DNA of 64,000 nt from Prorocentrum cordatum (Eukaryota > Sar > Dinophyceae > Prorocentrales > Prorocentraceae), in NCBI GenBank assembly GCA_963575745.1, contig CAUYUJ010015016.1:228236-292235 (forward strand). Direction: 5' to 3'. The notes beneath the pieces are model-generated. The model searched no databases. It was not told the origin of the DNA and saw only the letters and a program-made list of their open reading frames with translations. Position numbers and translations under genes: made by a program. Shown piece after piece: positions 2,877 through 45,829 of this stretch (positions within the stretch are counted from its first letter, which is position 1; every line of letters starts with the position of its first letter).

Positions 2877-3515
2877 TTTTTACCTAACAGCGAAGACTGA
2901 TAGGCTTCTAGTAGGCTCAAAAGAGAGCATCTTGACTCCCCAGGGGGGTCTGGGCAGATGCCGGACGGGTGCCCGGAGAATCCGCGGAAGTCGTTTTAAG
3001 CAAATAGTTACACACTTCGTGGTCTTCGAGGTCCCAGAACTCCATTACCGGGCCACATGCTGAATGCCCGGAGCCAACTGTAGGCCACTTCGTGCTCTTC
3101 GAGTTCCCAGAACTCCATTCCCGGGCCACATACTACGCCGTTACAAAAGTTCGTCACGTTTCATGAGAGCTTGAAGGTGGCATGGGTTTCGTGTCTTCCT
3201 TCCGCGTGAGCAAGCGGGCAGAGGCTGACCACTGCCCTGGCCGCGCCGAGCTGGCCCCCCCTTCCCCCTTAGAATCCTAGCGGACTGAGTCAAGAGCGGT
3301 CGGATCAAAGATCCGGGATTTCTCAAAGTGGGATTTCATCCCTTACTGTAATAGTATAGATTTAAAACGGGACATTTGGAAATCCCGACGTAAATTCACA
3401 CGGTTCTAGAAATCCCACCGGGGCGGGATTTGTCTTTGCTTATGCAAGATGTTCGACTTTTATTTTATGACGGAACTTTTATAACGCCGATGTATTTGAG
3501 TGCCCGGAGCCAACT
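2877..3515 (+). repeat. composite dispersed repeat, left part, interrupted by two insertions
   Basis: From about 2877 the sequence aligns with the start of the copy at 39175, sharing GATAGGCTTCTAGTAGG, AAAAGAGAGCATC and CAGGGGGGTCTGGGC. Two 73-bp satellite units follow from about 3009. The second is split by a small TIR element (3133-3492) and then ends abruptly after CAACT at 3515, where element 1 begins. The missing remainder of the unit resumes at 19641. Confidence 0.8.
3133..3492. mobile_element. small TIR element (MITE-like), about 360 bp, with TA target duplication
   Basis: It interrupts a 73-bp satellite unit between GGGCCACA and TTTGAGTGCCC. Imperfect 17-bp terminal inverted repeats (CTACGCCGTTACAAAAG against the complement of CTTTTATAACGCCGATG) match at 13 of 17 positions. 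TA flanks both ends, as in Tc1/mariner-type insertions. The interior carries several inverted GGGATTT and AAATCCC blocks and no ORF, so it would be non-autonomous. Confidence 0.65.
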
Positions 3516-3537
3516 GCTGAAAGGCTGGAGCTTCTTA
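3516..3537 (+). repeat. element 1 left terminal inverted repeat
   Basis: This 22-bp end is inverted relative to 19619-19640. The shared core is AGGCTGGAGCTTCTTA. Confidence 0.75.
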
Positions 3538-3689
3538 GCCTAGTTGGGAGGTGTTTGTGGCTGGGCTGAAGTTATTTGTGTTCGGGCATGTGTTGCGCAA
3601 GTGGCTTAAGAAATTTGCAAGTGTTGTAAGTATTTGCTGTGCGTTGTAAGTACACTCGGGGAACTTATAAGTATGTGTCAGCCTTTGAG

Positions 3690-3775
3690 CACCGAGTTAA
3701 GTTACTTAGTAAGTGCAGCTAAGTAACTTAGGTGTACTTAGCATTAAGTAGCTTAGGAGAACTTAGTGACACGTA
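3690..3775. repeat. element 1 left subterminal AAGTAACTTAG-type motifs
   Basis: TTAAGTTACTTAGTAAGTGC, CTAAGTAACTTAG, TACTTAGCATTAAG and AACTTAG occur within 85 bp. The core ACTTAGTAAGT is palindromic around its centre. The same motifs cluster near the right end (19500-19600), the usual arrangement of transposase-binding subterminal repeats; that role is inferred. Confidence 0.5.
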
Positions 3776-3919
3776 TGCGGAACTTACAACTTTCCGACAT
3801 CTCCCCCCCCCCCCTTCCCCCCCCTTTCCCCCGCGCGCGCCCCTCCGCGCGGCAGGCGCGCCTCGCCGCGGGACGTGCGCAGCGGCGCGCCAATGGGGGG
3901 GATGAGAAGGAGTGGAGAT

Positions 3920-4604
3920 AGCGATGGCGATCGCTTGAGGGAGGTAGTGGGATGATGGAGGGTAGCGATTGCGATCGCCGGAAGGAGACAAGACCGATAG
4001 CGATGGAGATCGCTTGATCGAGCGATGACGATCGCTCGGGAGGAACGCCGAGGGGGGAGATAGCGGTGTCGACCGCTTGAGCGAGGTGCTGGGAGAACGG
4101 TTTGGAAGCGATTGTGATCGCCTGTGTGCTTCAAGGGGAGATGCGTTGAGGATGGGATTAGCGATGGCGATCGCTTGGAGGATGAAACGGGGAAAACGGA
4201 GGGCTGCGATTGCGACCGCGCTTCGGGGGGGGGGGGATGGGTGAGAGTCCAACGAGGGCGATGGCGATTGGGGTCGCTTGAGGGCGGAAGAGGAGGAAAG
4301 GAGGAGGGTGCTCATGAGGGACATAGCGATGGCGATCGCTCCAGGAAGGTAGTGGGATGATGCAGCGATTGCGACCGCTCGAGGGAGGAGGAGGCGGACG
4401 GTGATGAGGAAGATAGCGATACCGATCGCTGGGAAGCGTTGGCGGGACGATGAGGGGTAGCGGTTGCGATCGCTTGCAGGAAGAAAATGAGAGGATCGTT
4501 TCGGAGGCAACCAGCGATGGCGATCGCTTTGGGAAGCTTGTGGGTTGATGGAGGGATGGCGGTAGCGACCGCTTGGCGGCGCATGTAGCGATGGCGATAG
4601 CTTG
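3920..4604. repeat. hairpin block 1 (AGCGRT-NNCG-AYCGCT)
   Basis: About 16 copies at 25-60 bp spacing, for example AGCGATGGCGATCGCT at 3920, AGCGATGACGATCGCT at 4021 and AGCGGTGTCGACCGCT at 4062. Each folds as a 6-bp stem with an NNCG loop. The change of AGCGAT to AGCGGT is matched by ATCGCT to ACCGCT in the opposite arm. The block lies between the left end and the first gene. Confidence 0.85.
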
Positions 4605-4869
4605 GGCAGGTCGCGATATCGTTCGGGGGGAGGGGGTTGGCAGGGGGGGCCATGGCGGGGGCGAGTGCGATGAGGGCGCAAAGTGAAGATAAGGATGAAC
4701 TGGCGATATCTAGGATGAGGAATGGGGGGGGTCGCGAAGAGGGGGGGAACTGGCCGCGATTGTGGTCACTCGAGTGGTCGGAGGGGCCGACTGTGGGAGG
4801 GCTCGACGTGCTTGCCAGGCGATCTCGATCGCTATGCGGCTACCGCCTTCTGCATGCAATCAGGGCGGC

Positions 4870-4885
4870 AGCCGTTTTGGCTTCG
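4870..4885 (+). other. relict spliced leader upstream of gene a
   Basis: AGCCGTTTTGGCTTCG resembles the 3' part of the dinoflagellate spliced leader (AG-CCATTTTGGCTCAAG). It starts just after an AG, as expected when the AG inside an older leader was reused as a trans-splice acceptor. It lies 73 nt before the ATG at 4958. Confidence 0.6.
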
Positions 4886-4957
4886 CGCGCGACGCGACGC
4901 GCGCTTCGCGCCGCGTGCGGGGCGCCACCTGTCGCCTTGGGAGCGGCGTGCCGCGCG

Positions 4958-6543
4958 ATGACGGACGCCCAAGAGTCGGTGGAACATCTGAGGTGCGCCA
5001 CCACCTTCCTGTCCAAGCTGCAGCCTCGGAGCGAGCCATGGAAAGAGCTGCTCAACGCCCAGGCGACGCTGGCGACGACCATGCTGCAGTCATGGTCTTC
5101 CATTTCGTCCGAGGACTCGGCCGAGCTGGCGCAAGCCATTTCGGAGCTGCCATTCGGCGCGAAGCAGCGTGGTGATCTCCTGCGGGCTGTCGCAACGCTC
5201 GCCACTGCCTCGGCGCGCGCGCTGGTTGCCAACGCAGCTGCGCCCCAGAAGCTGCTGAGCAACTCTCGCGCCCCCTGCAGGACTTCACGGCCATCGCGGC
5301 CTGCCTCACGGCGAGGCAGTGGGAGACAATGCTGGGCGAGGGCAACGACTTTCTGGGCCGCGCGGGGGTCGTGCCCCAGGCGTGCAAGACGCTCGGATGG
5401 AGGACCGTCCACGAGGCTACAGCCCAGGTTGCCCGCTGCGTCGCGCTGCAGGTAGATGGCGCCGACAAGGCGCTTCGACAATGTCCCGTGACCCTTTGGG
5501 GCTACTGCAAGCGTGCGAAAACGTGCGCGAAGAAGCTGCTCCCTTGGAAGCTGTGCAAGCAGATGGCGGAGTCCGAGGGCGCCTTCGTTTCGGCGCTGCC
5601 CGCTTCCCCTGTGGGCTACGCCAGGTCGCGTGGCGAGATGTGCGCGCGCGCGCGTTTCCGAAGGAGGGCCCAACGGCTTTCCCGTTGGATTCCGCGCAGT
5701 TCATGGCGCTGGCGGACGGCGCCCCCATGCGCGAGAGCAAGGCGCGGATTAAGGCGCTGACTGCGTCGGGCTCGGCGCAGGGCATCGCGTTGGCGCTGGC
5801 GACGCCAGGGCAATGCGACGCCAGGGCAGTGCCGTGCAGGCGGCGCCAACCGTCGTCGCCGTTGCCGCTCGAGGATGACGGCGCCGCTTCGAGCACTGCC
5901 GCGCCGGCGCGTCGGGCATCGGGCCTGTCAGCGCAGGAGGCCAGGGGCAAGATCCTCGAGGAGCTCAAAGACCGCAAGCCGAAGATGCCCGCAGGAGGGC
6001 GACGGCGACGGCGGCAGCGGCAGCGAGGAGACAGATGCCGAGGCGGCGGGCGACGCGGCCGTCGGCGCCGCGAAGGTGAGGGGCGCGGGATCACCCACCA
6101 CGCCACAGGGCCACTGGGGGGGCGCATTGCGCGAGGTAGACAGAGTGACACCCCCAGCGGGGGATGACATACCCATCTCATACCACAGGGGTGGGTGGCG
6201 AAGGGGGGGGGGGGGGGCGCGTAGATAGAACCAACCTTCACAGAAGGCCAAGAAGACGCCCATCAAGAAGGCGCCCAAGAAGGCGCCGAAGGCGCCGAAG
6301 AAGGCGCCGACGACTGCGCCGAAGAAGAAGAAGGCGCTGAAGGCGCCGAAGGTGGGATCGCACAAGGCAGGGAAGCCGCCCTTCTCCGTGGAGTGGAGCA
6401 GGGGCCAGGTCTTGCGCAGGACAGGCAAGCGCGGGCCATGCTAGTCGATAGCGCTCAAGTTCGCGAAGTTCGGCGGCGACAGCGATGAGGCGATCGCGGC
6501 GGCCAAGAAGTGGGTGGCCAAAGCGATCGCGGGCGGCGCGTGA
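4958..6543 (+). pseudogene. gene a: dinoflagellate-type protein with Lys/Ala/Pro linker and FSVEWSR C-terminal domain, broken
   Basis: The first segment (MTDAQESVEHLRCATTFLSK...) is helical. The frame changes near 5270 at a C5 run into a segment with DFTAIAACLTARQWETMLG and WRTVHEATAQ, and again near 5650. From memory this resembles an unnamed family common in dinoflagellates. A GT-AG intron (6076-6243, GTGAGG to TTCACAG) precedes a KKAPKKAPKAPKK linker and a tail starting FSVEWSRGQVLRRTGKRG. That tail is cut by an in-frame TAG at 6442-6444 but continues SIALKFAKFGG...AIAAAKKWV to a TGA at 6541. Two frame changes plus one stop suggest a decayed copy or assembly indels. Function unknown. Confidence 0.5.
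6076..6243 (+). other. intron of gene a (GT-AG, 168 bp)
   Basis: The donor AAG/GTGAGG and acceptor CCTTCACAG/AAGGCC leave the Lys codons in phase on both sides. The intron contains a G14 run. Confidence 0.55.
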
Positions 6544-6695
6544 GTCGCGCCCGCGCTGCGCTGGCGCCGCAGGGGTGCTGGCGCGCCATCTGCGCGGCAC
6601 GGGGCCGCTGCCGCGCGTGGAGGCGGCGTGCGCGCGGAAAATGCAAAAGGGATGCGGCCGATATGAATGACGAAAGGTGGAAGGCGCGATTGGGT

Positions 6696-7056
6696 AGCGG
6701 TTTCGACCGCTAGGAGGTGGATGGCGAGGGGGCGAGAAGGGGCAGAAGGATGATGAGGAGGGCGAGGGGAGAAAGAGGAGGAGGGTGAGGGGGGGGGAGG
6801 AGGGGGGGAGGAGGGGGGGGGGGCGGATGGAGCGATGGTGATCGTTTGGGCGGAGCGGTGGCGACCGCTTGATGGAGGTTGAGAGGCAGATCGAGGTTGA
6901 TGACAATGATGATGAAGTTTTCGCATGAGGTTTGTAGCGGTTGCGATCGCTGGGGTTCAATGATGGATTGCAGCGGGTGAGATCGCATGAGGGGGGGATT
7001 ATGGGGCCAACGTTGGGGAAGGAGGGGTGGTCGGACGGGTAGCGATTTCGATCGCT
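6696..7056. repeat. hairpin block 2 (AGCGRT-NNCG-AYCGCT)
   Basis: Includes AGCGGTTTCGACCGCT at 6696, AGCGGTGGCGACCGCT at 6854 and AGCGATTTCGATCGCT at 7041. The first two are compensatory stem variants of the common form. The block lies between genes a and b. Confidence 0.85.
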
Positions 7057-7109
7057 TGGAGTTGCGTGAGAATGGGCGCGATCGTGGCAGCGATCAGTTT
7101 GCCATAGCG

Positions 7110-7125
7110 AGCCGTTTTGGCTCTG
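7110..7125 (+). other. relict spliced leader upstream of gene b
   Basis: AGCCGTTTTGGCTCTG matches the spliced-leader 3' part at all but a few positions and again begins at an AG. It is 78 nt before the ATG at 7203 and closely resembles the relict at 4870. Confidence 0.6.
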
Positions 7126-7202
7126 CGCGGTGCCGCCCGCGGCAGCTGCGCGCCGCCCGCGGCGCCCGCGGCTCTGCGCGGCGCCGACCGCGCTCGCGCG
7201 CG

Positions 7203-8643
7203 ATGGCGGAGGAGTTCCTGTCCGCGGCACAGGCGTTCGCGTCGCGGCTGGGCGACCCTGGCGCCGAGACCGAGCGCGACGGCGAGCGCGACGGCGCGGG
7301 CGGCGAGCGCGACGGCGTGGGCGGCGAAGCCGTTGCACCAGTCACGGAGGATGGCTACGCGGGGGGGGTGGCGTCGCCAGTGGATGCGCCGCCGTCGCCG
7401 TCGCCGCCGCCGCCGCAGAGCTACAGCAGCTATGCGGCGGAGAGCGGCGACAGCGTGCCGCTGCCGAAAAGCGCCAGCAGCGGCGAGCCGCTGCGCGTGC
7501 CCGTCGGCATCTACGCGCAGCCGCCCGCGCAGCCGCCGCCGAAGCGCCCGCGCCTGTCGGCGGCCGCGGCTTCGGCGGCGGACGCCCCCGACGTGCTCGC
7601 GATCGCCGTCGCGGCACCGACGGCGCCGCGCTCGAAGGCAGCGCCGCGGGCGCACGCGCCGGCGGCCGCGCCGCGGCGGCAACGGTTGCAGCAGCAGGTG
7701 CCGCGGCCACCAAAGGCATCGGCAGCAGCTGCAGCAGCAGTTGCGACGGCAGCACCAGCGCCACCAGCAACGCCACCGCCTCGGCGCACACCAGCAGCAG
7801 CGCCACCAGCAGCAGAAGCGAGAGCAGCAGCACGCCCTTGGCCGAAGGCCTTTCGCCTAGGCCCAGCACCACCAGCAACGCCACCGCCCGCAGCAGCAGT
7901 AGCGAGAGCAGCGGCAGGCAAAGCAGCTCCAGCAGCAGCTGCAGCAGTCGCAGCGTGGCGGCAGGCGCAGCAGCAACTGCAGACCAGGCTGCAGGCGCAG
8001 GCAGCAGGCGCAGCAGCTCCAGCTCCAGCAGCAGCAACTGCAGACCCTGCTGCAGCACTGCAGGCCGCAGCCGCAGCGCGGGCGAGCGCGCGCGAGCAGC
8101 GGGCCAACAACTACACGCCCGAGCAGGTCATTGACCTTCAGGCGGAGTCGGCTGCGGCGAGGGCGCTGGGCCTGCGGTGGGATCAGCGCGGCCCTGCGGG
8201 CCCGCAGCAGGGCGGCCCCGACACGCGGCGGGGGCGGCGGTACGGCGGTGGCAGGAACAAGGGCAAGGACAAGGACTGCGGCAAGGACATAGGCAGCGGC
8301 AAGGGCAAGGGCTGCGACAACGCCACCGCCAGCAGCACCGCTGCCATCAGCACCGCCGCCAGCAGCAGCAGCCGCCAGCAGCAGATGCAGTTCCTGCGAG
8401 CAGCGGCGCAGCCCGCTGCGCTGCTGCGCTCGCTGCCGCGCTCGCTGATGCGCTGCTGCGCCCGCTGCGCCTCGGCAGCTGCGGCGCTTCGCGACAGCCG
8501 CTGCGCCGCCGCGCTCGCCGCCGCGCTCGCTGCTGGCCGCTGCGCCCGCTTCGCGGCAGCTGCGGCGCTTCGCTGCGGCCAGCTGCGGCAGCGCCGTGCT
8601 CGTGAGCGTCGCGGCGGCGGCGCTCCGCTTATAAGCGACTGAC
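7203..8643 (+). CDS. gene b: Ala/Gln/Pro-rich low-complexity protein
   Basis: A single open frame starts MAEEFLSAAQAFASRLGDPG, chosen because it lies just downstream of the relict leader. An acidic and Pro-rich region follows, then a long Ala/Gln region made by GCAGCA repeats (about 7690-8080), a short conventional segment with NNYTPEQVIDLQAESAAARA, a GKGKDKDCGKD stretch and an Arg/Leu/Ala-rich end of doubtful coding value. The open frame ends at the TGA at 8640. No known domain. Because the GCN repeat keeps several frames open, the C-terminal third may be artefactual. Confidence 0.4.
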
Positions 8644-8796
8644 TTCGCGCTTGCGAGCGCGCGCAGAGACGGCTGCGCGCGGTCGGCGGCGGCGGCGGCG
8701 ACGGCGGCGGCGAACGCGGCGACGGCGTTAGCGACGGTGGGCGGGTCTGGTGTCTGGGGGGTGGAAGCATTCCAATTGTTGGGCTGGCAGGTGTAA

Positions 8797-9020
8797 AAAC
8801 GATTCCGATCGTTGATGGGGGGGGGGGGGACCCGATCTCTGCGATGGTTGGCGACGGGCGATTTCGATCGCTCGGGGGGAAGGGTGGTCTGGGCGAGTTG
8901 GTGACAGCGATTCTGATCGCGGCCTGAGGGGCTTGAGGGAGACGTTGGAGGGCGTCATGGGCGATTCCGATCGCTTGGGGGTGGGCTGCGCGCGCATGGG
9001 ATAGCGATTTCGATCGCGTC
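8797..9020. repeat. hairpin block 3
   Basis: Five copies or near-copies, including GCGATTTCGATCGCT, AGCGATTCTGATCGCG and AGCGATTTCGATCGCG, lie between genes b and c. Confidence 0.75.
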
Positions 9021-9234
9021 CGATGGGTGGGCATGGTCCGAGCGCGCAGCATGCCATTGCCGTTGTTGGATATGTCCCCCCGCGCGCGGCCTGCGGCAGG
9101 CGGCGGGCGGCGTCGCGGCCCGCGGCGGGCGGCGGGCGACATCGCGGCCTGCGGCGGGCGGCGGGCGGCGCCAGCGGCGGCCGCGGCCGCGGCGGCAGCA
9201 GCTGCCAACACCACCGTCGGCAGCACCGACATCA

Positions 9235-10173
9235 GCAGCAGCAGCAGCAGCACCGCTGCAGCAGCAGCGACAGCAGCTCCAGCAGAAGCGCCACGTCGGC
9301 GCAGGTGGGCGAGTGGTGCCGCCTCGGGTGCGCGGCCCCAGGCTGCGCAAAGAAGTGCTTCAAGCAGTCGCCGCGCGAGTGCTACATCTGGCACGAGGAG
9401 CACTTGAAGAATTCGACCGCTGGGAGCCAAGGTTGCATCGACGAATGGCAGCGGGCCGACATGGCCGGCCGGGCGGTCGCCACTCCGTCGACCCCTCCGA
9501 CGTCGACGAGTGGCGCGCGCAGGGGGCCAGGAAGACGGCCGAGGCAGCGGGCGCAGCAGACGCAGCAGGCGCAGCAGCAGCAGCAGCAGCAGCAGCAGCC
9601 ACCTCCGCGGAGCCCACGCGCGAGTCGCGGTCGCGGTCGCGCAAGCGCCGCCGTCGCGCCAAGCGCGAGGAGGCCAGCCCGCCGCCGGCGGCGCGCGCCC
9701 CGCGCTCGCCGAAGCGCAGGGGCGAGCCGACCTCGCTCGCCGCCGCCGCCCGCCGAGGCGTCGTCGCTGGCGGCGGCGGCCCCCGCGCCAAGTCGGCGTC
9801 CTCGGCGCCGCCGCCCGCCGCCGCCGCCGATCATATCCGCTCCCTCCATGCGACTGCGGAGAGTCTCAAGGAGACGGTGGCGGCGGCGGCGAGCGTCGCG
9901 GCTGCCGGCCCCTCGTCGTCGGCGTCGAACGCGGTCGCCATCCTCAAGGAGACCATGGCGCCGATGGCGCCGCTGTCCGTGGGCGCGGCAACCGCGACGC
10001 TGTCCATGGGCGCGGCAAAGCAGGTCCTGGACCACATCAGGAGGGCCGAGAGCTGCGCGGAGACGGCGGCGGACGTGCGCAGCAAAGCCGCGGCCGCGTT
10101 CCAACGCGAGGCGGCGAGCCTGGCGTCGGCGCGCGCCGACGTCGAGCAGGCGACGCGGCCGCGCGGCCTCTGA
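9235..10173 (+). CDS. gene c: Cys-rich segment followed by Arg/Ser-rich and Ala-rich segments
   Basis: Near 9305 the frame reads VGEWCRLGCAAPGCAKKCF, a cluster of Cys (C-x3-C-x4-C-x3-C) followed by CYIWHEEHLKNS, which could bind zinc. Near 9480 the coding signal moves to another frame (VDPSDVDEWRAQGARKTAEA), then poly-Ala from CAG repeats, an Arg/Ser-rich stretch (ESRSRSRKRRRRAKREE) and an Ala/Ser-rich helical C-terminus ending at the TGA near 10171. The frame change is either an unseen intron or an indel. The RS-like stretch hints at RNA binding, but no domain is recognisable. Confidence 0.4.
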   Translation, partial: AAAAAAPLQQQRQQLQQKRHVGAGGRVVPPRVRGPRLRKEVLQAVAARVLHLARGALEEFDRWEPRLHRRMAAGRHGRPGGRHSVDPSDVDEWRAQGARKTAEAAGAADAAGAAAAAAAAAATSAEPTRESRSRSRKRRRRAKREEASPPPAARAPRSPKRRGEPTSLAAAARRGVVAGGGGPRAKSASSAPPPAAAADHIRSLHATAESLKETVAAAASVAAAGPSSSASNAVAILKETMAPMAPLSVGAATATLSMGAAKQVLDHIRRAESCAETAADVRSKAAAAFQREAASLASARADVEQATRPRGL

Positions 10174-10768
10174 GGTTGCACCGCAGATGGGGGCATATCG
10201 ATTAACTGATGGACACCCGGAAGCTGAATGGTTAGCTGGTGGTGGCACCAAGTGGCTAGCCATTCGGCATCCATGCATCCAGCAGATATCAGGAGGGGAA
10301 AAAACACACAGACACAATTAATCCTCGATTCCGGAAAAAAAAAATATGGGAAAATATGGGAAGTGGGGGGAGGGCAAAAACCCAGAACATATGGAAAAAT
10401 ATGGTGGGTATTTTTATTTGTGTGTATTTATGTGTGTGTCCCAGTTCCCCTTCAAGATAGTCGCTCGGCCCTCAACTGCCACCGGGCTGCCTCCCCGCGC
10501 CGCCGCCCCGCAGCGCTGACAGCGCTGCCGCGGCCGCCCGCCGCCCCGCCTCGCCCGCCGCCGCGGCGGCCCTCGCGCCCCGCCGCGCCCGTCGCCGCGG
10601 CCGCCCGCCGCCCCGCCGCGCCCGTCGCCGCGACGGGCGGCCCCTTGCGGCCCCGCGCCCGCCGCCGCGGCGACGGTGGCCGCGCGGCCTACCGTCGGAA
10701 AAATACATTGCAGGGGGGGGTGAAGGCGAGGGGGGTGAGGCGGAGGAAGAGAAGGAGGGTGAGGAGGA
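10174..10768. other. spacer with one stem-loop; no gene
   Basis: A stem GCTGAATGGTTAGC pairs with GCTAGCCATTCGGC around 10221-10268 with two mismatches. Then come A-rich and TG-rich simple sequence and GC-rich codon-like repeats (10490-10690). No convincing gene. Confidence 0.35.
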
Positions 10769-11349
10769 AGCGATGGCGATCGCTTTGATGTCGAGCGCGT
10801 GGGTTAGCGGTGCCTGTCGCTCGAGATAGCGACGTCGATCGCTTGGTCGGAGCGGCGGCGCGGGGTGCTGGGGGGGGGGAGGGGATGGGGGGGGGGATGT
10901 AGCGATGTTGATCGGTTGCGTAAGCGATGGCAATCGCTTGGGGTAACAGCGCTCATCGCTTGGATTAGCGATGCCGATCGCTTTTTTTTTTTTGGGGGGG
11001 GGCGGTGGCGATGGATGTTGAGTGGGGAGTGCGTAGCGATGCCGATCGCTTGGGTAAGCGATGGCCGTCAATTGGGCCAGCGATGCCGATCGCTTTGGGG
11101 GGGGGGGGGGATGGGGGGCGGTGACGATGGATGGTGAGTGAGGAGTGCGTAGCGATGCCGACCGCTTGGGTAAGCGATGACCGCCAGTGGGTTAGCGATG
11201 TCGATCGCTTGGGCGGGGTGGCGGTGGGGGATGCGGATGGGGGGGGCGTAGCGATGTCGATCGCTTGAGAGGGGCGACGGCGAGGGACGTTGAGGGGGGA
11301 TGGTGTGGCGACGACGATCGCCCGTGAGCGTAAGCGATGGCGATCGCTC
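10769..11349. repeat. hairpin block 4
   Basis: About 15 copies, densest in the element: AGCGATGCCGATCGCT at 10967 and near 11036, 11081 and 11152 (the last ending ACCGCT), and AGCGATGTCGATCGCT near 11195 and 11250. Partly degraded copies (AGCGATGGCCGTCAAT) alternate with intact ones at about 20-bp spacing, suggesting local pairwise duplication. Confidence 0.85.
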
Positions 11350-11499
11350 GTGGGAATGATGATGAGGTCGGGGGAGCGAGATTGTGAGATGGCGGTGGTG
11401 GTGATTGGAGTAAGTGCACCCAGGGCCCTGGTAAGTACCGCAAGAATCATAAGCTCCGCACAATGTTATGTTTTTTTGTTTAAAAAATGAAACAAATGC

Positions 11500-11724
11500 T
11501 ATATTGCGTTATCTTCTAGTACCCTGAAATTTCGGATGCGAGGATAACACAATGATAGCATATGATAGCATTTTGTCCTAACATACACCATGTTATCTTA
11601 TAAGATAGCACGCACATGATATCATGCTACATTTTAGGATAACCTGTTATATTTTTGGATACAACGCTATATTGTGTTATCCCGGTGCCAGAAATTCCAG
11701 GATAACATAGGATAACGCAATATA
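11500..11724. mobile_element. small TIR element (MITE-like), 225 bp, AT-rich
   Basis: Perfect 14-bp terminal inverted repeats TATATTGCGTTATC at 11500 and GATAACGCAATATA at 11711 enclose a nested second inverted pair (GGATAACACAAT and ATTGTGTTATCC). The segment is far more AT-rich than its surroundings and has no ORF. It is nested inside element 1. Confidence 0.65.
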
Positions 11725-11963
11725 TCAAACAGAGAACAAAGCTATAACATCGTGTGGATTTTATCGTACTTATCATACTTAGGCGCGGTAAGTAACTTAG
11801 CAATGGCGATCGCCTGTTCATAACGATCGTGGTTGTTGATGTGACGCCAATGCTGTTGTAGATCGAGCGGGCGAGCTTGGTGCTCGTCCTTGCAACGAGA
11901 GCGCCCCCCCCCCCCCGATCGCGGGGCTTGCGCGCCGCGCGCCTCTCGCGGGGCCCGCGCGCC

Positions 11964-14624
11964 ATGCCCGCCGCGACGGGCGCCGCCCAGGCCAAGGGCG
12001 AAAGCGACTGCGACAGCGAGGCGACGCTGAAGCCCGCGGGGCCGAACGATGATAGCTTGCACGCTGCTGTGATTGCCGACCTCGGCTTGGGCAACGGGCA
12101 GGCAAGTGGCGCCGCGGCGGGCGGCGCCGAGGGGGGCGGCGCCGCGGCGGGCGGCGCCGATGGGGGGCGACGCAGCGGCCGGCGACGCCGAGGGGGGCGA
12201 CGCCGCGGCGGCAGGCAGCGCGGGCGACGCCGCGGCGGCAGGCAGCGCGACGGGCGACGCCGCGGCGACAGGCTGCGCGGGCGATGCCGCGGTCGATGCA
12301 GGCAGCGCGGGCGACGCCGCGGCCGCTGCAGGCATCGTGGGCGGCGCCGCGACGCCGCCGACGGCGACGCCGAGTGTGTCCACGAAGGGGAAGCGGCCGC
12401 CGAAGAAGGCCAGGGAGAAGGCGAAGGCTGCAGACGCGGCGGCCCGGCGCGTGGCGAAGGGCAAGGCTAAGGGCATAGCCATGTCGGCGCCGAAGCCGCC
12501 ACCCAAGAAGGCCGCGGCCAAGGCGACGGACGCGGCAGCGTCTGTGCCACCCAGGGCCAAGTCGGCGAGTGCGGCAGCGCTTGTGCCCGACAGGACCACG
12601 TCGGCGAAAGCTGCAGCGCCTGTGACCAAGGCAGCAGTGACGAGTGCGGCAGCGCCTGTGCCCAAGGCCGCGGGCAAGGCCATGGCTGGCTACGCGGACA
12701 TCGGCAAGTGGGTCCAGAAGGTGCCAGTCCGACCGCCGCAGGCGGGCTCGATTGCTGCGAGTTCGAGGACGGCTGCGCCCAGCAAGACGGGGCGGGGCGA
12801 GGACTGCTCCTCTCCACAGAGGCTCGCGGTGGGGAGCTTCGCGGCGCTATCGAGCCCGCAGAGAAGGGGCCGCCTGAGCGACCGGCGCGAGTTGGGCCTG
12901 GACGCTGTCGAAGACGCGTTCAACTGCGATCGGCGCGGCCAGCCGTGCGACGCGATGTCGTCGCATCCCATGCGGGTCGCGAAGGAGGGGCAGGTCTTCC
13001 GGCGCAAGTTGTGCTCGTCGCGCGGCGCGCTCGTCGCGAGGGGTGGGGGTGCGATGAAAGCGCGGCTGCTGCGTTTCAATGGTCACGAGCGGAAGGCCTT
13101 TGGAGCGGCCTGCAGGAATGCACGAAAGGTTTGGGCTGCAGAAGCACCTGGGCTTCACGCTGCAGACGCTCGCGGAGAAGGGGCAGCGCCACGGCAAGAA
13201 AAGGTGGCGATTGCCCATTGGCGTGGTACAGGAAACAAGGGTTCCCGTGGCGCCGCACCAAAGCCACGTGCACGGACGTTGTTCAACGCCCCGTGTTTGG
13301 CAAGTGCTACCGCGTTGTAACGCATGAAATAGGGCGCTGGGAGCAGCAAGTGGGCAGAAAGGCCCAGGGGGAGCCCGCGAAGGGCGTCGACGCGAGCGGC
13401 GGCGACGTTGCAGCGGACAGTGACCGCGAGAGCAGCGAGGAGGCCGACGACGTCGACAACGCCGACTTCGAGGAATGTGAGGGGGAGTGCGAAGGCGACG
13501 AGGAGGAGGAGGGCGGCGAACGCGGCGAGGTGATCAGTGATTCACTTGCGTCGCCCAGCGGTAGCGATGATGATCACGATCGATCATCAGAGGACGGCTC
13601 GAGTCACGAGCCACCGGCGCCACCCATCAAGGCAGAGCATCGCCGCGAGGACGGCGCCAAGAAGGTCTCGCGCAAGGACGAGCTGCGCAGCGATGACGAC
13701 ATTGAACGCAGCAGTGCCACGCGCAGAGATAAGCAGCATCGCAAGGACGGCGATGCGAAGGTCAGCAGGCACGGCGGCAACAAAGAGCTATCGAGTGATG
13801 CGATGATCAGAGCAGCACTGGATGTTGGCACTAAGCGCCCTAAAGACAAGGCCACGCACGCGGACGAGGGCAGAAGCAGCAAGGACAACCACAAGGACAA
13901 GGGCACTGGCAGCAAGGCCACGCGCCTTGATAAGAGCAGCGCGGGCCGCGCCAAAGGCACGTCCATCCACAAGAGCAGCAAGGGCAAGGCCAAGGGCAAG
14001 GCCGCTGAGAAGGAGAGAGCCGCCAGCACTAAGGAGGAGACTCACCGCGACGCCGACGCCGATGAGACGCACAAGAAGCCGCTCCCCACCAGCAGCGGCA
14101 GCGACAGCAACACCGACAGCGACCCCCCCGAGCTGCCGCCTTCGCATGAGACCGCCCAAGAGAGGAAGACCCGCGAGAAGGCTGAGAGGGAGAGCGCCAA
14201 AGAGAGGATGGACACGTCGAAGAAGGCGGAGAAGGAGAAGGCAGCCAAGATGCTCCTGGCGACGCGGGCGCAGGTGATTATCATCACCCTCTTACCCCCC
14301 ATCTTCCTCCATCCCACCCCCAAGCAATGCTCAGCCTCCTTTTCCTCCTGCAGTCGAAGCTGATGGTCCCGCGCCAGAGGCTGGAAAAAAGCAATTGAAT
14401 CCGACGGGTTTGGCAATCCCCCCGATGCCATCAAGGAGAACGCGACCGACAAGTTGCAGGCGTTGTCGGCCATTTTAAGGGCGAGCTCGAAGATTGCCCC
14501 CCCAGGCGCTGGGACCCCTCCAGGTTCGCTTGGACGGCGACCGAAGTGCACGACATCGTCAACACGGCGAATGCACAGGGGGTTTTCGCGAGCACGATGT
14601 GCAAGGGCATCCAGGCCATGAAGT
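11964..14624 (+). CDS. gene d: Ala-rich, then Lys/Asp/Glu/Ser-rich protein in several frames
   Basis: Start chosen at ATG 11964 (MPAATGAAQAKGESDCDSEA). The signal moves frame near 12160 at a G6 run into an Ala/Gly repeat region and a KKAREKAKAADAAARR linker, then MAGYADIGKWVQKVPVRPP. A later segment in another frame (CYRVVTHEIGRWEQQ) leads into a long acidic and Lys/Ser-rich low-complexity region (13380-14260). A GT-AG intron (14274-14353; GCGCAG/GTGATT to CCTCCTGCAG) is likely. The C-terminal part reads AIESDGFGNPPDAIKENATD, then after a C7 run WTATEVHDIVNTANAQGVF, ending in TAA near 14622. I recall similar C-termini in unnamed dinoflagellate proteins. Function unknown; the exon structure is only partly resolved. 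Confidence 0.4.
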
Positions 14625-15340
14625 AATCATGCCCTGGGCGTCATCGGCGTGGCCTTAGCGCAGCCACGCATCGCCAGGAGGTCGCTGCAGGTAGCGGCGC
14701 TGTCGGCCACGCGGTGCCGTAGCGTCTTTCCCCACCGTGGCCACGGTGCGTGAATTGAGGGCGCCGGCGCGCCCTGCCCACCACCGCGCGCGCCGCGGCC
14801 GCAAGCCTTGGCAGAGGCGCAGAAGCCTGCCGTCTGATCCAGGCGCCAGGCTTGAGCTTGCGCAGCCAGATAGCTTCTCTGTTGGGCTGTATTCGTCCAG
14901 CCGCAGGCTGGGTTATTTTGAGCTGTTGAGCTGTACTTGTTGCTTGCAGGCGCCCAGCTGTATTCTGCTGGGGCTTGCGCAGCCAGAGAGTGCAGCTGCC
15001 ACCGCTGGCGCACGCCGGCCATGTGCCTTGTTCCTTGCTGCGCATATGCCACCCAGCAAGGAGGTCTTTCCGCGCGGCGCAGCGCATTTGCGCCACGCCG
15101 CGCCACGGCGCGGGCGAGGCGCATCGCGACGGAGGGGGATGACGAGGAGGAGGCACATGCAGAGGATGAGGCGCCTCCCCTGCCACCCGCCGCGCGGCGC
15201 ATCATTTCCGCGCGGCGCAGCGCATTTGCGCAGCGCCGCGTGCCTAGCTCCAGGTGTGGGCGAGGCGCGCGGTGACGCGCGCTGCCCCCCTCCCACCGAC
15301 TGCGCGTTGATCGCGCAGCGGTTGTGGCTTGTAAAAACAT
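14625..15340. other. spacer without recognised gene
   Basis: It contains repeated GCGCGGCGCAGCGCATTTGCGC-type blocks near 15070-15100 and 15205-15240, a local duplication with palindromic GCGC content. No credible coding frame. Confidence 0.35.
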
Positions 15341-15668
15341 AGCGGCGATCGCAATGTCGATCGCTGGATGTGGGTGGTGCAGTCGTGGAGGTGGCAGAAG
15401 CGGGTGGGCGAGTGACCTAGCGATGACGATCGCTGCGGGGTGGAGTGTAGCGATGCCGATCGCTGCGGGAGGGATGGCAGCGATGGCGATCGCTATGATG
15501 AGGAGCAGCGCGGGGATCAACATGTTCAGCGATGGCGATAGCTTGGGGCGGGGTGATGAGCGGTGGTTGGAACGAGAAGTAGGATGATGATGATGATGAG
15601 GATGATGCTGAGACGGCGGGGGGGGGATGAGGAGGAAGGAAGGTGTTGCCAGCGACGACGATCGCTTT
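15341..15668. repeat. hairpin block 5
   Basis: Six copies upstream of the transposase-like gene, including AGCGATGACGATCGCT, AGCGATGCCGATCGCT and AGCGATGGCGATCGCT near 15420-15495 and AGCGACGACGATCGCT near 15652. Confidence 0.8.
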
Positions 15669-17837
15669 CGAGGCTGGGAGACTGGGCGCGTGGTCAGTCA
15701 TAGAGCCGCGTCGGCTCGATATCGGCGCGCACCCGCGCGCCGCGTGGCTGCCTCGGCCGCGCCGCCAGGCGAGCGCGCCGCCAAGCGTCGCCGATTGGGC
15801 GAGCTCGTCGCCGCGCCAGGCACCACTGCCAGGGCACTCGTGCGCCTCGCGAAGCAATTCGCGGATGACCCAGATCGCGCCGCGTCGATATCTCGCAATG
15901 CGATCAGTTCCGCCGTTGCCGAGGCTTACGACGCTCTCGGCACGTCGATCGAGCTTCCAATGGCCGACAAGGCTGGGAAGCCGTTCAACTGGCACGCCGG
16001 TAATGTCGGCAACTCGTTGCGGTACTTGTGCCGAGAGAGCTCCGAACACGCGGCGATTATCGAGCGGGCGGTTGAAAGTGGCATACCGCTCACACTTGTG
16101 TTATACTTGGACGAGATCACGCCAGGCGACGCGTTGGCGCCGCGGCGCGACCGAAAATTCTGGATGATATTCTTCAGCTTCCTGGAGCTCGGTTCCGACA
16201 TGCTACGCAGGCAAGAGTTTTGGCTTCCATGTGGCGTCCTGCGCTCGAAGATCGCCAGCGGCGTGAAAGGCGGCATCAGCTGCGCCGTTCAGCTCCTCCC
16301 GAGGAATGCGTTCCATGCTCCAAGCAGGCTGGCCACTGCTGGCGAGCGCGCGCCCTTGGCCGACGGCACCTCGGCGCTGATTCGGGCGCGCCAGTGCAAG
16401 ATCCTTGCCGACATGGACGCCCACAAGGGAGTACTCAGCATGAAAAGCGCCAACGGTTGGCGGCCGTGCATGCGATGCAAGTGCACCATCAGAAAAGGAG
16501 CCCGCGTCGCGGGCGACGTCGACAACTATTTCGTCGACACTTGCTGCCGCGACCTCGCGCGTTTCGACGCGCAGTCGGACGACGAGGCGCGGGGGCTCTG
16601 GGGCGCGCTCGCCGCGCAGGTTGGCCGCCTGCCAGCGGCCGGGTTCAAGAAGCTCGAGGTCGCCAGCGGGTTCAATTACCACGCGCATGCGCTGCTTGAC
16701 GATCGCGAGCAGCGGAGCGCGGTGCGACCGTCATCGTTGATGCACGACTCAATGCGCAACCTCTGGAGCAATGACATCATCGGTTGGGAAGTGTTCGCTT
16801 TCCTGGGCGCGCGCAAAAGGAAGGCTGGCATGTCGTTCGCCGACTTGCGAAAGTACGCGCGCTGCTGGTCGTGCGCTGGCGGCTCGTCGGCGACGCGGCG
16901 TGCGCTCACGACTGGGCGCGAGGCCGCGTGCAAGAAGTCGTTCGCATCTGGCGCAAGCGAGCTGATCTCCCTGTTGCACATCCTGCTGGCGCGCGCCGAG
17001 GAGCGCGTCGCCGACATTCCGTCGCTCGAGCGCGAGCTCGATTCATTCCGCGCGTGCTGCCTGATGGCGGACGCCCTCCTGCGGGCCAAGCGCGGGCTTC
17101 CCGCCCCCGCCGAGGAGGAGTTCATCGCGTTGGCAGAAGTCCATTTTGACCTCCACCAGCGGGCGCACGGCCCCCGCTTCGTCAAGCCGAAGCACAACTA
17201 CGCGTTGCACAACGCGGCGCAGGAACTCCCCAAAGCGCACCTCCCCCCCCCTCCCCGCGGGCGTTGCGTTTGAGCTGGGGGTGTTAAAGGGCGCCCCCAT
17301 CCAACGCCACCCGTCGCAATCGAACGACGCAACGCTGACCGGGGGCCCAAGCAGCTCGACTGCTTCGTCACTGTGCGGCACAACAAGGTGGCGAAGGGCA
17401 TCGCCGAGTCCGCGGCGAACTGCTCCAATTTCGAGCTCGCGGTCCTCGGGGCCGCCGTCCTGCGCCAGTTGCGGATGCCCAGGGACATGGGGCCGTCTGG
17501 CAACGCGCTGGCGCCGGCTGCGTTCCGCGATCGGGGCCGTCGAGGTCTTCGCGGCGCCGTCGCCGCGCTGGGAGGGGGCCCAGTTCGCAAAGTAGGCGAG
17601 ATCGTTCGCTCGCGCGGTGGCGAGTGCTTCGTCGTGGACGCGCGCGCCGCCATGTCGGGCGACTTGCACGTCGTCGCGCGCGGGGTCGAGATCCACGCGC
17701 GCGGGGGCGGCGTTAGCACTGGCCGCGCGATCAACGAGCTCCTCGCGATCAAGCTTGCCGGCGCCGATCTGGCGGCGTCGGTTTGGGCGCGGCGCTCGCG
17801 CGAGGGCGAATGCGCCATTGCGCGCGCCCGCTGCTGA
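15627..17837 (+). CDS. gene e: transposase-like protein of a dinoflagellate family (LDEITPG / MHD / KPKH motifs)
   Basis: Two exons, 15627-17234 and 17352-17837, give about 697 residues in one frame. After a basic N-terminus the protein has LVLYLDEITPGDAL (residues 157-170), a hydrophobic FFSFLELG, three Cys in RPCMRCKC (281, 284, 286), CC at 306-307, a LMHDSMRNLWSNDIIGWEVF block (371-390) and FVKPKHNYALH near the exon end. Exon 2 supplies QLDCFVTVRHNKVAKG. I recall this motif order from many unnamed dinoflagellate proteins; no function has been shown for them. The D/H motifs and the KPK block would suit an RNase-H-like transposase core, but that is inference. It is the most downstream large gene in element 1, so it is the best candidate mobility gene. 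The true start is uncertain, since the first 30-60 residues run through a hairpin copy. Confidence 0.6.
17235..17351 (+). other. introner-like GC-AG intron of gene e (117 bp)
   Basis: Exon 1 ends at CCCAAA and the intron starts GCGCACC; it ends CCCAAG and exon 2 begins CAGCTCGAC, both in phase 0. Near-identical CCCAAAGC and CCCAAGC flank it like a target duplication. Inside, CCCCGCGGGCGTTGCGTT near the 5' end is an inverted partner of AACGACGCAACGCTGACC near the 3' end. Removing it deletes the in-frame TGA at 17271 and joins ELPK to QLDCFVTV. Confidence 0.6.
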
Positions 17838-18230
17838 AACAAACAAAAAGTCGATGCGCAGGAGGCCGCTTTAAGTGGATGGGGGGGGGGGGGGGCAGGA
17901 GGAGGGGGGGGGGAGGACAAGCTAGGTGCGCGCGCGTCATATCTGACGTCCTACCCCTCCCTCCCATCCCTTACCATGGCGCTGATTTTCTCTATCCGCG
18001 GACTAGTGGGTGGTGGTGCGCGCGCGTGCGTGCGCGCGTGTGTGCGTGTTGTTGTGGTGGTGGTGGCTGGTGGTGTGGTGCTGGTGGTGGTGGTGGTGCT
18101 GCTGCTGCTGCTGCTGGCTGGTGGTGGTGGTGGCGGTGGCGGCGGTGGTGGTGGCGGTGGTGCGGCGCGCGGAGGGGAGGGGGATGATGGGGGGGGGAGA
18201 TGGGGATCGGCGACCGGGGCTCACTTGGGC
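17838..18230. repeat. G-rich and (GTG/GGT)n simple sequence
   Basis: G runs near 17880-17915, an alternating GCGCGTGTGT tract and GGTGGT/CTGCTG repeats to about 18175. No gene. Confidence 0.6.
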
Positions 18231-18708
18231 GGAGCGGCGACGACGCTTGAGGAGGAGGGGAGGGGGGGGGGGGGGGGAAGAGGAGAGGTGGGGGGCGAGC
18301 GATGGGGCCGCCTGGGCGGATCGGCGGCGACCGCTTAAGGGGGGGGAATGAGAGGATAATGCGCGATATGGAGCGGAGCGATGGTGATCGCTTGAATGAT
18401 GGCGGGGGCGACGGCGATCGCCCGGGCGGAGCGGCGGCGACCGCTTTAGAAGGCGGCGTAGGGGGAGGGCGGCGACGAGGGGAGGATGAGGAGAAAGGGG
18501 AGGAATTACGATAGCGATGGCGATCGCTGCAGGATGCGAGGGGGGGGGGAGGGGGGGGGGCAGGGCAGGGCGCTCCGTGGGCCGCTGCGATGGAGGGCCA
18601 GCTGGTCGCGCTTGTCGCGCGGCACCGCGAGCAGCAGGCCGAGCTGTCGCAGTGGCGCTCTGTGCGGGAGGCCCCGCGCCCCCCTCCAATCCAGCGATAG
18701 CGATCGCT
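18231..18708. repeat. hairpin block 6
   Basis: Copies include AGCGATGGTGATCGCT near 18379, AGCGGCGGCGACCGCT at 18430, AGCGATGGCGATCGCT near 18513 and AGCGATAGCGATCGCT at 18693. The last lies inside the intron of gene f. These are the right-most copies in the window. Confidence 0.8.
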
Positions 18709-19421
18709 CTCCTCTTATTCTTCTTCATCCTCTTCCTCTTCCCCCCATCGACCTCTCCTTCTCCTTTCCCCCCCCCCCCCCTCCTCCTCCTCCACCTCCT
18801 CCTCCTTCTCATCTTCCTCCTCCTCCCCTTTTCCTCCTCCTCCTCATCATCATCGTCATCCTTGTCCTCCTTCTCCTCCTCCTCCTCCCCCGCCTTCTCC
18901 TCCTCCCCCTCCTCCTCTCCCCCCTCTTCCCTTCCTCCTCCTCCTCCTCCTCCTCGTCCTCCTCCCCCCCCCCTCCCCCTCCTCCTCTCCCTCGCCCCCC
19001 CCCCTTTCTCCTTCTCTCCTCCTCCTCCTCCTCCTCATCCTCCTCCTCATCCCCCCCCCCCACCTCCCCCCATTCCTCCTCCGCCTCCTCCTCGCCCAGG
19101 CGATCGACCGCGGCTTGCTACAGCCGGTCCGCGACCTGGGCCAGTGGCTCACCGAGGTGGGGGCGACGACGACGACGTGGCGACGACGCGGAAGACGACG
19201 GCGGCGCGCGCGCGACGATGACGACGAACGAGGCCGAGCGCGAGCTGGAGATCGCGCCCCAGGAGCACGACGCGGCGCTGGCGGCGCTGGACGCGGCGAC
19301 GCGGCGCGAGGAGGAGAGGCGACAGAAGAAGAAGGAAAAGAAGGAGAAGAAGGATAAGAAGAAGCAGGAGAAGAACGCGGCGCGCTTGCGCTGCGTCAAG
19401 AAGCCCGCGAACAATCGCTGA
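18590..19421 (+). CDS. gene f: small charged protein with Lys-rich tail, two exons
   Basis: Exon 1 (18590-18661) reads MEGQLVALVARHREQQAELS then QWRS. A pyrimidine-rich intron (18662-19099, GTGCGG to CTCGCCCAG) holds a hairpin copy and about 370 bp of CCT repeats. Exon 2 begins AIDRGLLQPVRDLGQWLTEV in phase. The plausible C-terminus lies in another frame (EAERELEIAPQEHDAALAAL, then RREEERRQKKKEKKEKKDKK and a TGA at 19419), implying another intron or an indel inside the GACGACGACG stretch near 19165. Predicted helical or coiled, highly charged. No known domain. It is the last gene before the right end of element 1. Confidence 0.4.
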
Positions 19422-19499
19422 GTTGGCCGCGCGCCTTCGCCTTCCTTCTTCTCCTCGCCCTCACCCTTTAAAAAAGTTGGTGTTACTTTTAAGAAGCCC

Positions 19500-19600
19500 A
19501 TAAGCAACTTAGATGTGAAACCCTACAGAACTTAGTAAGTAACTTAGTAAGTAACACTAACTTGCAGCGGTAAGTAACCTAAGTCACTTGAGGTACTCAG
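19500..19600. repeat. element 1 right subterminal AAGTAACTTAG-type motifs
   Basis: CAACTTAG, AACTTAGTAAGTAACTTAG, AAGTAACACTAACTT and TAAGTAACCTAAGT lie 40-140 bp from the right end and mirror the cluster at 3690-3775. Confidence 0.5.
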
Positions 19601-19618
19601 CGCTAAGCTTGAGTAGCA

Positions 19619-19640
19619 TAAGAAGCTCCAGCCTCTAAGC
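19619..19640 (-). repeat. element 1 right terminal inverted repeat
   Basis: Read on the minus strand from 19640, it matches the left end from 3516, with AGGCTGGAGCTTCTTA fully conserved. GTAGGCC of the interrupted satellite unit resumes at 19641. Confidence 0.75.
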
Positions 19641-20757
19641 GTAGGCCACTTCGTGCTCTTCGAGTTCCCAGAACTCCATTCCCGGGCCACATGTTGAATG
19701 CCCGCAGCCAGCTGTAGGCCACTTCGTGCTCTTCGAGTTCCCAGAACTTCATTTCTGGGCATGATTTTGAATGCCGGGAACGAACTGTAGGCCACTTCGT
19801 GGTCTTCGAGACCCCAGAACTTCATTCCTGGGCATGATTTTGAATGCCCAGAGCGAACTGTAGGCCACTTCGGGGTGTTCGAGTTCCCAGAACTTCATTC
19901 CTGGGCATGATTTTGAACGCTCGGAGCCAACTGCTGGCCACTTCGTGTTCTTCGAGTTCCCAAAATTCCATTCCCGGGCCACTTTTTGAATGCTGAGGCA
20001 GGCTGAGGCTGAGGCTGAAGCGGGCTGAGGCTGAGGCTGAGACTGAGGCTGATGCAGGCTGATGCTCAGGCAGGCCGAGGCTCAGGCTGATGCAGGCTGA
20101 GGCTGAGGCAGGCTGAGGCTGAGGCTGAGGCCGAAGGCAGACTGAGGCCGAGGCTGACGCAGGCTGAGGCTGAGGCAGAGGCAGGTTGAGGCTGAGGCAG
20201 GCTGAGGCTGAGGCAGGCTGAGGCTGAGGCTGAGGCAGGCTGAGGCTGAGGCAGGCTGAGGCCGAGGCTCAAGGCAGACTGAGGCTGAGACAGAAGCAGG
20301 CTGAGGCTGAGGCCGAGGCAGGCTGAGGCTGAGGATGAGGCAGGCTGATGCTGAGGCAGGCTGAGGCTGAGGCTGAGGCTGATGCAGGCTGCGGCTGAGG
20401 CAGGCTGAGGCCGAGGCTGAAGGCTGACTGAGACTGAGGCTGAAGCAGGTTGAGGCTGACGCAGGCTGAGGGTGAGGCTGAGGCATGCTGAGGCTGAGGC
20501 AGGCTGCCAGGCTGAGGCTGAGGCTGAAGCAGGCTGAGGGTGAGGCTGAGGCAGGCTGAGGCTGAGGCTGAAGCAGGCTGAGGCTGAGGCTGTGACTGCG
20601 ACTGCCCTTGCCGCTGCGACTGTCATCGCGAATGCGATTGCGACTGCGAGAACAGAAGAGTTCTACAACTGGATTCTCATCTGAATCTTAAGGGGGATGC
20701 TTCCACATATGCTCCTACACATCGGTGTTCGGTTGCTTTGCCGGGATAATTTTGGTT
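19641..20757 (+). repeat. composite dispersed repeat, right part
   Basis: Five 73-bp units (19641 to about 19988; GTAGGCCACTTCG, TTCCCAGAACTCCATTC and GAATGCCCGGAGCCAACT are typical pieces) run into a GAGGCTGAGGCAGGCT array to about 20600, then a unique tail with CATCGCGAATGCGA, CAACTGGATTCTCATCT and TTGCCGGGATAATTTTGG. Order and sequence match 39310-40149. Minus-strand frames here (Gln/Pro/Ala/Ser repeats) are artefacts. Confidence 0.85.
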
Positions 20758-34975: not shown

Positions 34976-35094
34976 GATAGGGCACTGGCGCCTGCCCAGG
35001 CGGCCAGGGTGAGAGCGCGGCGCTGCTGGGTCGCTGCCTCTGGCGCGTCTTTGCGACACTTACTTACTTCTGCCCTAGCTGCCTCTGGCGCTTC

Positions 35095-41246: not shown

Positions 41247-41575
41247 GCTAAAGTGAGGCGCTGCCTCTGGCGCGCCTGCTGCCTCTGGCGCATTGCCGAT
41301 GTTGTTGCCGATGGGGGCGGTTTGCCGGGCCTGCAAGCAACGCCCCCGCGACCATGATGGTTCGTGCAGGAATCGTGATTGTAGAGAGTTCCGCCCAGGA
41401 CGTACGGGGCAACACTTTAAGAGGAAACGGCAGCAGAATCTCCTCGGGAACGTCGCAAAATGCCTCGGTGACTTCGTTCAGGGCGGGTGCGTCGCTTCGC
41501 TATGTCACAGGCGCGTTGTTCGCATGGGCATTGCGGCAGGCATTTTGCTGCGAGAACAAGACTCGAGAAAAAACT
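41247..41575 (+). CDS. coding fragment with two AASGA cassettes and a Cys-rich motif
   Basis: In one frame, two cassettes (41260, 41278) lead into LPMLLPMGAVCRACKQRPRD, HDGSCRNRDCREFRPG and QQNLLGNVAKCLGDFVQGG. The C-x2-C and C-x4-C spacing could bind zinc. It may continue the cassette protein at 32404-34975 across element 3. Confidence 0.35.
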
Positions 41576-45370: not shown

Positions 45371-45509
45371 ACGTGCAGGGGCGTGGCCAGAATTGGTGCG
45401 GGAGGGGATGTGGGAGGGGGAGGGGGGAGGGGGGAAGGAGGCGGGAACGCGGGGCACCGTCTCTTCCAAAAGAGGACCCAACACCACAGGATGGTTGGGA
45501 AAAAATTAT

Positions 45510-45793
45510 CAAAGCAAAACTAGACGAGATCTCAGGAAAACTAAACAGGACCTCACCAAAACTAAACGAGGCCCTAGGACAACCAGAGAGGACCCTACCA
45601 AAACTAAACGAGACCGTAGGACAACTAAACAGGACCCCAGCAAAACTAAACGAGACCCTAGGAAAATTAAACACGACCCTACGAAACCTAAACGAGACCA
45701 TAGGACAACTAAACAGGACCCTATAGCTAAACGAGGCCCCCCGGGCCCCCCCGGGGGGCGCGCCCCCCGGGCCCCCCCCCCGGGCCCTTCCCC
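45510..45793. repeat. truncated fourth foldback unit
   Basis: A complement-oriented arm (45510-45735) and the start of the GC spacer (45736-45793) are present. The rest is missing where element 2 begins at 45794. Confidence 0.7.
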
Positions 45794-45829
45794 CTTGAGC
45801 ATCCAATGCACCAATATATTGCAAACACC
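45794..45829 (+). repeat. element 2 left terminal inverted repeat
   Basis: A 36-bp end, inverted at 55593-55628 with two mismatches (G/A and T/C). Confidence 0.8.

Follow-up and report, generated by a model that had tools for sequence, protein, structure and literature searches.

A large terminal-inverted-repeat transposon in satellite DNA of Prorocentrum cordatum with a probable divergent RAG1/CACTA-fold transposase

RAG-like and Transib elements are described as starting with CAC and as almost always flanked by a 5-bp target site duplication (TSD; PMC7204232), and the account of CACTA-type (CMCT) elements in PMC12730594 gives them mostly 5'-CA..TG termini, TSDs of 2-5 bp and enzymes with C(2)C and H(3-4)H between the second D and the last E. 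RAG1 has catalytic D, D and E residues and zinc residues of the type C2, H2, with H937 and H942 as the histidines (PMC4914335). KDZ elements (Zisupton, Kyakuja) are assigned 7-8-bp TSDs, and Spy and some Harbinger relatives are listed as normally lacking a TSD (PMC12730594). In the red alga Chondrus crispus, En/Spm elements of 16-20 kb with 4-5 open reading frames (ORFs) are described (PMC6431247), and for dinoflagellates the main text of a genomics review (PMC11453091) uses "transposase" 0 times and "transposon" 3 times. Here we analysed a 64-kb stretch of contig CAUYUJ010015016.1 of Prorocentrum cordatum, hereafter referred to as the window, and found between positions 3516 and 19640 a large DNA transposon with terminal inverted repeats (TIRs) inserted in satellite DNA, an assignment that is well supported. 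The element is likely to carry its own transposase, a divergent DDE enzyme of the RAG1/CACTA fold that ends in a BAH domain. No such element was reported among the titles and abstract openings listed, mainly of open-access papers and covering only a part of the larger topics, from the literature on dinoflagellate transposons, RAG-like and Transib elements, CACTA/EnSpm elements, giant transposons and BAH-transposase fusions. The first-pass annotation had proposed an undescribed class; the large TIR transposon stands, and its transposase family lacks a credible Pfam match, but "class" is too strong a word, as the enzyme, on its predicted fold and residues, sides with the RAG1/Transib/CACTA-type (CMCT) transposases and multi-ORF En/Spm elements of 16-20 kb were already described in a red alga.

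Boundaries, subterminal repeats and hairpins of the element

We searched the window with GCTKARAGGCTGGAGCTTCTTA at up to 3 mismatches and recovered two sites, 3516-3537 on the plus strand and 19619-19640 on the minus strand, while 100 shuffles gave 0 matches. The annotated inverted ends (20/22 identical) are thus a pair unique in the 64 kb. Satellite continuity breaks off at the same base as the TIR match, within one G (3516 or 19641) that is assignable to element or target. Joining 3515 to 19641 yields ..GGAGCCAACTGTAGGCCACTTCG.., as at an ordinary boundary between satellite units. No gap is needed to align the joined flanks across the junction with a composite repeat near 39.2-40.0 kb; of the 228 aligned bp (91%), just 21 precede the junction, owing to the nested element that comes next on that side. 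The 73-bp satellite runs uninterrupted near 39.2-39.6 kb within this longer composite repeat. The rejoining of the flanks at a satellite junction was therefore confirmed, but the junction, previously called invariant, occurs in variants (CAGCTG, GAACTG, CAACTGCTGGCC and CAACAGTCAC). Likewise, the flanks correspond to the composite repeat once the nested interval 3133-3492 is excluded, at identities of 81-92% for the outer left flank and about 84% for the right flank. The nested element itself is 360 bp long, with TIRs CTACGCCGTTACAAAAGTT / CATCGGCGTTATAAAAGTT and a TA duplication (by eye).

Repeats inside the unit follow its boundaries. CACTA elements are large and have dense subterminal transposase-binding repeats, and here TAAGT/ACTTA is concentrated next to the two TIRs (13 copies on the left and 7 on the right; Table 1), whereas the interior has 0.45 per kb and the flanks have 0.28-0.34 per kb. 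Of the seven interior copies, six (at 11411-11432 and 11768-11795) adjoin an AT-rich inverted repeat nested near 11.4-11.8 kb. The left and the inverted right end have 3 9-mers in common, which is not above chance (maximum of 5 in 300 shuffles), and 9 are common to both ends on the same strand, which is above the shuffle maximum of 5. As TAAGT/ACTTA is present in both orientations, the case for subterminal repeats rests on motif density. The AT-rich inverted repeat spans 11497-11727, with 57-nt arms at 77%.

We further found a hairpin family private to the element. A search allowing up to one mismatch gave 47 matches (both strand readings counted), all between 3920 and 18708, against a chance mean of 0.02. 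The form AGCGAT-NNCG-ATCGCT (up to 2 arm mismatches, NNCG loop) has 38 copies, all on the plus strand, with 0 on the minus strand and 0 outside the element. The stems of 23/38 copies are perfectly paired, and both-sided stem changes occur as AGCGGT/ACCGCT (three times) and AACGAT/ATCGTT (once). All 38 hairpins fall outside the drawn gene intervals, which make up 54% of the element; 12, 4, 4, 10, 6 and 2 copies precede genes A to F, respectively, and 29 of the 38 are closer to the next gene start than to the previous gene end. This placement upstream of genes is suggestive only. No match was found in Rfam. The subterminal and hairpin repeats noticed in the first-pass annotation were thus both borne out. 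A single copy of the unit was seen, as would be the case if it were not mobile but simply unique DNA between two satellite tracts with a TIR match by chance; the shuffles, the subterminal repeats at both ends, the private hairpins and the gap-free join make this barely credible.

A transposase family with a predicted RAG1 fold

The annotation had placed a transposase-like gene near one end; the gene is present, and its position is corrected here, as it ends 1.8 kb from the right end. Its two open frames are separated by a GC-AG intron at 17235-17351 (117 nt, divisible by three, with an in-frame stop inside), which was placed there because the relatives align straight through. The family set comprised 45 proteins and P0006, with 37 rows in the main alignment; P0032, P0034 and P0040-P0046 (157-339 aa) were omitted from it and a few equally short ones retained, and the tree excluded P0006, P0018, P0030 and P0033 as too short. 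The relatives are mostly on short contigs, and three of them (P0035, P0036 and P0037) are on contigs of 126-290 kb. Short contigs for most relatives, the GC-AG intron and the GC-rich DNA are in the style of a dinoflagellate host. When only relatives that have a residue at the position concerned are counted, the two D residues are conserved in 35/35 and 36/36, the cysteines of the CxxC motif (C240-x2-C243) in 36/36 and 37/37, and the E in 33/33, and the histidines are found in 28/35 (H487), 34/35 (H488) and 31/34 (H492). E507 is assumed to be the catalytic E from its position and the predicted fold.

According to the structure model, the transposase core has, over about 450 residues, the fold of RAG1, which cleaves antibody genes, with a D-D-CxxC-E set and a nearby histidine pair, and the C-terminal domain is a BAH fold with putative histone binding. 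Its predicted fold and its pattern of residues thus place the enzyme with the RAG1/Transib/CACTA-type (CMCT) transposases. It resembles RAG1, ProtoRAG and Transib in this core and residue set and differs in having no 5'-CAC, no 5-bp TSD, no detected sequence similarity and a BAH tail; the spacing of H937/H942 in RAG1 is 5, and that of H487/H488 with H492 is 5 or 4. With CMCT/EnSpm elements it shares C(2)C, an H(4)H or H(3)H between the second D and the last E (not in every member), short TIRs, large size and the subterminal TAAGT/ACTTA repeats as putative binding sites, whereas its GCT..AGC termini, 0-bp TSD and lack of a Pfam CACTA match set it apart. In contrast to KDZ elements, no 7-8-bp TSD is present. 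The giant En/Spm elements of Chondrus crispus are likened to it by description, in size and in having several ORFs within one TIR element, and unlike the BAH proteins ZMET2, DNMT1 and BAHCC1, the predicted BAH fold here is Pfam-unrecognised and fused to a transposase. Since the ends disagree with the fold and residues, we read the element as a variant that works like RAG1/CMCT elements and is not a member of a named family.

Several of these likenesses (C(2)C, the H(3-4)H-like pair, the size, the short TIRs and the dense subterminal repeats) would equally fit an ordinary giant CACTA/EnSpm-type element like those of the red alga, with a divergent transposase and with the BAH tail and missing TSD as local oddities. 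We regard this as a tenable minority possibility, against which stand the absence of a credible Pfam match in 37 members, termini that are neither CAC nor CA..TG, the lack of a TSD (3-10 bp tested) and the predicted C-terminal BAH fold. An earlier guess of KDZ/Plavaka, made from remembered motifs, was dropped, because Plavaka is counted within CMCT (PMC12730594) and the fold search led to RAG1. Lysozyme and MarR matches obtained from PDB with a 4-row profile (E 0.014, 0.31 and 1.2) were gone with the 37-row profile.

Weighing the assignment and a proposed mode of movement

A number of observations weigh against a mobile element with its own RAG1/CACTA-fold transposase. To our knowledge, no CACTA transposase structure has been solved, and RAG1 as the best structural match therefore cannot separate RAG-like from CACTA-like enzymes. 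The model is of a relative and not of the window protein itself, and its residues were paired with those of RAG1 by position and range, without a printed structural alignment. The family histidine pair may be H488-x3-H492, which are 4 apart and not at the RAG1 spacing of 5. Profile searches against PDB sequences, taken to E 10, returned neither a RAG1 nor a Transib chain. Pfam gave no credible match to the transposase (none in 9 segments and none in 4), and among the 37 members 13 families were hit, each in 1/37 and with a best E of 0.0094, BAH being unrecognised. The termini are GCT..AGC instead of CA..TG, a second copy with the same ends was not found among viral contigs (0 exact TIR matches), and the hairpin-upstream-of-gene pattern is partly circular, because the gene intervals were drawn by us.

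Nor is there a TSD of at least 3 bp at the TIR boundaries 3516/19640 of this one insertion, as the first-pass annotation had noted. We tested 400 boundary pairs around the ends at lengths of 3-10 bp (2 bp by eye, at the TIR ends only), and 12 of them, not including the TIR boundaries, gave direct matches of 3-4 bp, with 4 bp the longest, which we attribute to chance. The nearly symmetric candidate, GCCA at 3513/19644, would require satellite bases to belong to the element. A 0-bp duplication with a 1-bp ambiguity, where RAG-like, Transib and CMCT elements duplicate 2-5 bp, is also what would be expected if a real TIR unit had entered a broken satellite by end joining of excised DNA and not by strand transfer. 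We consider this unlikely, since the target is rejoined without loss and both TIRs are intact, an outcome that would be rare from end joining, and since Spy and some Harbinger relatives are described as normally lacking a TSD (PMC12730594).

The window copy of the transposase retains both D residues (codons at 16110 and 16410), both C residues (16467/16476), H487 and H492 (17193 and 17208). Three changes also count against the assignment: the E507 position, E in 33/33 relatives, is V in the window (GTG at 17373); the DxMH histidine, H in 36/37, is R (16755); and H488, the second histidine of PKHH, is N. In the tree, the window end branch is 0.57 as compared with 0.06-0.17 for the three nearest relatives. 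Given the lost E, the histidine changes and the long branch, the element looks old or relaxed and its enzyme is probably inactive; either the resident transposase lost its activity once the element had inserted, or any movement today depends on an enzyme supplied in trans. The same substitutions and branch length would suit a domesticated or captured RAG1-fold gene within a non-autonomous TIR unit moved by another enzyme. This is quite unlikely in our view, as the acidic residues are kept across the family and a hairpin cluster precedes this gene as it does the others.

For a transposon moved by its own enzyme, we propose that the transposase would bind the clustered TAAGT/ACTTA repeats, pair the 22-bp TIRs and cut there, so that the whole 16-kb unit could be excised and then joined to target DNA. 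Through its BAH domain, the transposase may be guided to a chromatin state of repeats such as satellites, and the hairpin clusters before the plus-strand genes may act, as DNA or RNA, as element-specific control sites. A RAG1 transposase fold with its catalytic residues, as predicted here in a sizeable, Pfam-unknown and probably protist family and fused to a putative chromatin-reading domain, bears on the origin of the RAG recombinase fold and on how transposons choose chromatin. A wider proposal is a protist-wide superfamily that combines a RAG1-fold recombinase with a BAH reader, inserts into satellite chromatin without a TSD and keeps its plus-strand genes under a private hairpin code. This is doubtful; if true, a RAG1-like lineage would exist at a great distance from animals, and its own reader would play the part of the PHD finger of RAG2. 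The TIR, subterminal motif, hairpin and protein family together may offer a label for big gene-carrying elements in genomes with poorly classified repeats.

Other genes and the surrounding window

The trusted coding signal of the element is on the plus strand, in line with the coherent plus-strand genes described in the first-pass annotation. The guanine-cytosine (GC) phase contrast is 0.226 in the drawn gene intervals and 0.103 in the gaps separating them; the remainder of the window, which includes repeats, gives 0.152. The coherence does not extend to gene A, which shows frame changes near 5240, 5650 and 5990 (by eye), an in-frame TAG at 6442-6444 and a likely GT-AG intron at 6076-6243 (by eye). 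Gene C probably has a frame change near 9480, again by eye. Support for genes A-D and F from the codon model is just mild, because it was trained on the transposase itself and the minus strand scores nearly as high and locally higher.

Table 1 Features of the element and its satellite flanks (window coordinates)
Feature	Position	Strand	Description
Left flank, 73-bp satellite units	3007..3515	+	interrupted by nested TIR element 3133-3492
Left TIR	3516..3537	+	22 bp, GCTGAAAGGCTGGAGCTTCTTA; 20/22 identical to right end
Left subterminal zone	3538..3790	.	13 TAAGT/ACTTA in 253 bp, 51 per kb
Hairpin cluster before gene A	3920..4833	+	12 NNCG copies
Gene A, broken	4958..6540	+	no Pfam family above cut-off in pieces
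Hairpin cluster before gene B	6696..7056	+	4 copies
Open frame B	7203..8642	+	479 aa, counted from the first ATG (picked by eye); low-complexity; no Pfam match
Hairpin cluster before gene C	8798..9018	+	4 copies
Gene C pieces	9281..10173	+	Cys-rich stretch 9281-9499, then later open frame
Hairpin cluster before gene D	10769..11814	+	10 copies
Gene D exons	11862..14363	+	changes of frame; C-terminus charged and of low complexity; no Pfam match
Hairpin cluster before transposase gene	15350..15666	+	6 copies
Transposase gene (predicted RAG1 fold)	15612..17837	+	open frames 15612-17234 and 17352-17837
Hairpin copies before gene F	18513..18708	+	2 NNCG copies
Short exon F	19200..19421	+	charged protein; no Pfam family above cut-off
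Right subterminal zone	19390..19618	.	7 TAAGT/ACTTA in 229 bp, 31 per kb
Right TIR	19619..19640	-	near copy (20/22) of GCTGAAAGGCTGGAGCTTCTTA, inverted
Right flank, 73-bp satellite array continued	19641..20005	+	

Pfam scans of genes B, C, D and F gave no match above the cut-off. An AP2-like domain suspected by eye in gene A was dropped after Pfam gave no match, and a DUF1840 match in exon F (E 0.0038) was set aside, its 17.9 bits falling short of the cut-off of 25. Polymerase, capsid and packaging genes had no Pfam match in the 9 + 7 scanned segments, in which broken or spliced frames could hide one, and no RAG2-like gene was recognised in the element, within the limits set by its broken frames. 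The transposase model gave no match to viral models at E<=0.001, and two scans of viral contigs and one of genome contigs, run with family profiles other than the 37-row one, returned no relative.

Compared with the rest of the window (blastn, tblastx), the element gave short weak matches only. A search for a DinoSL relic returned one 4-mismatch match at 36729, which is too weak to use. Tandem satellites of 21 bp occupy 35088-36100, 41527-43520 and 45452-45800, the first block lying in the opposite orientation to the other two; the listed pairs are 79-86% complementary over 208-262 nt. Between the latter two blocks, positions 43709-45434 are taken up by a tandem array of 90-bp units, of which the central ones are 96-97% alike.
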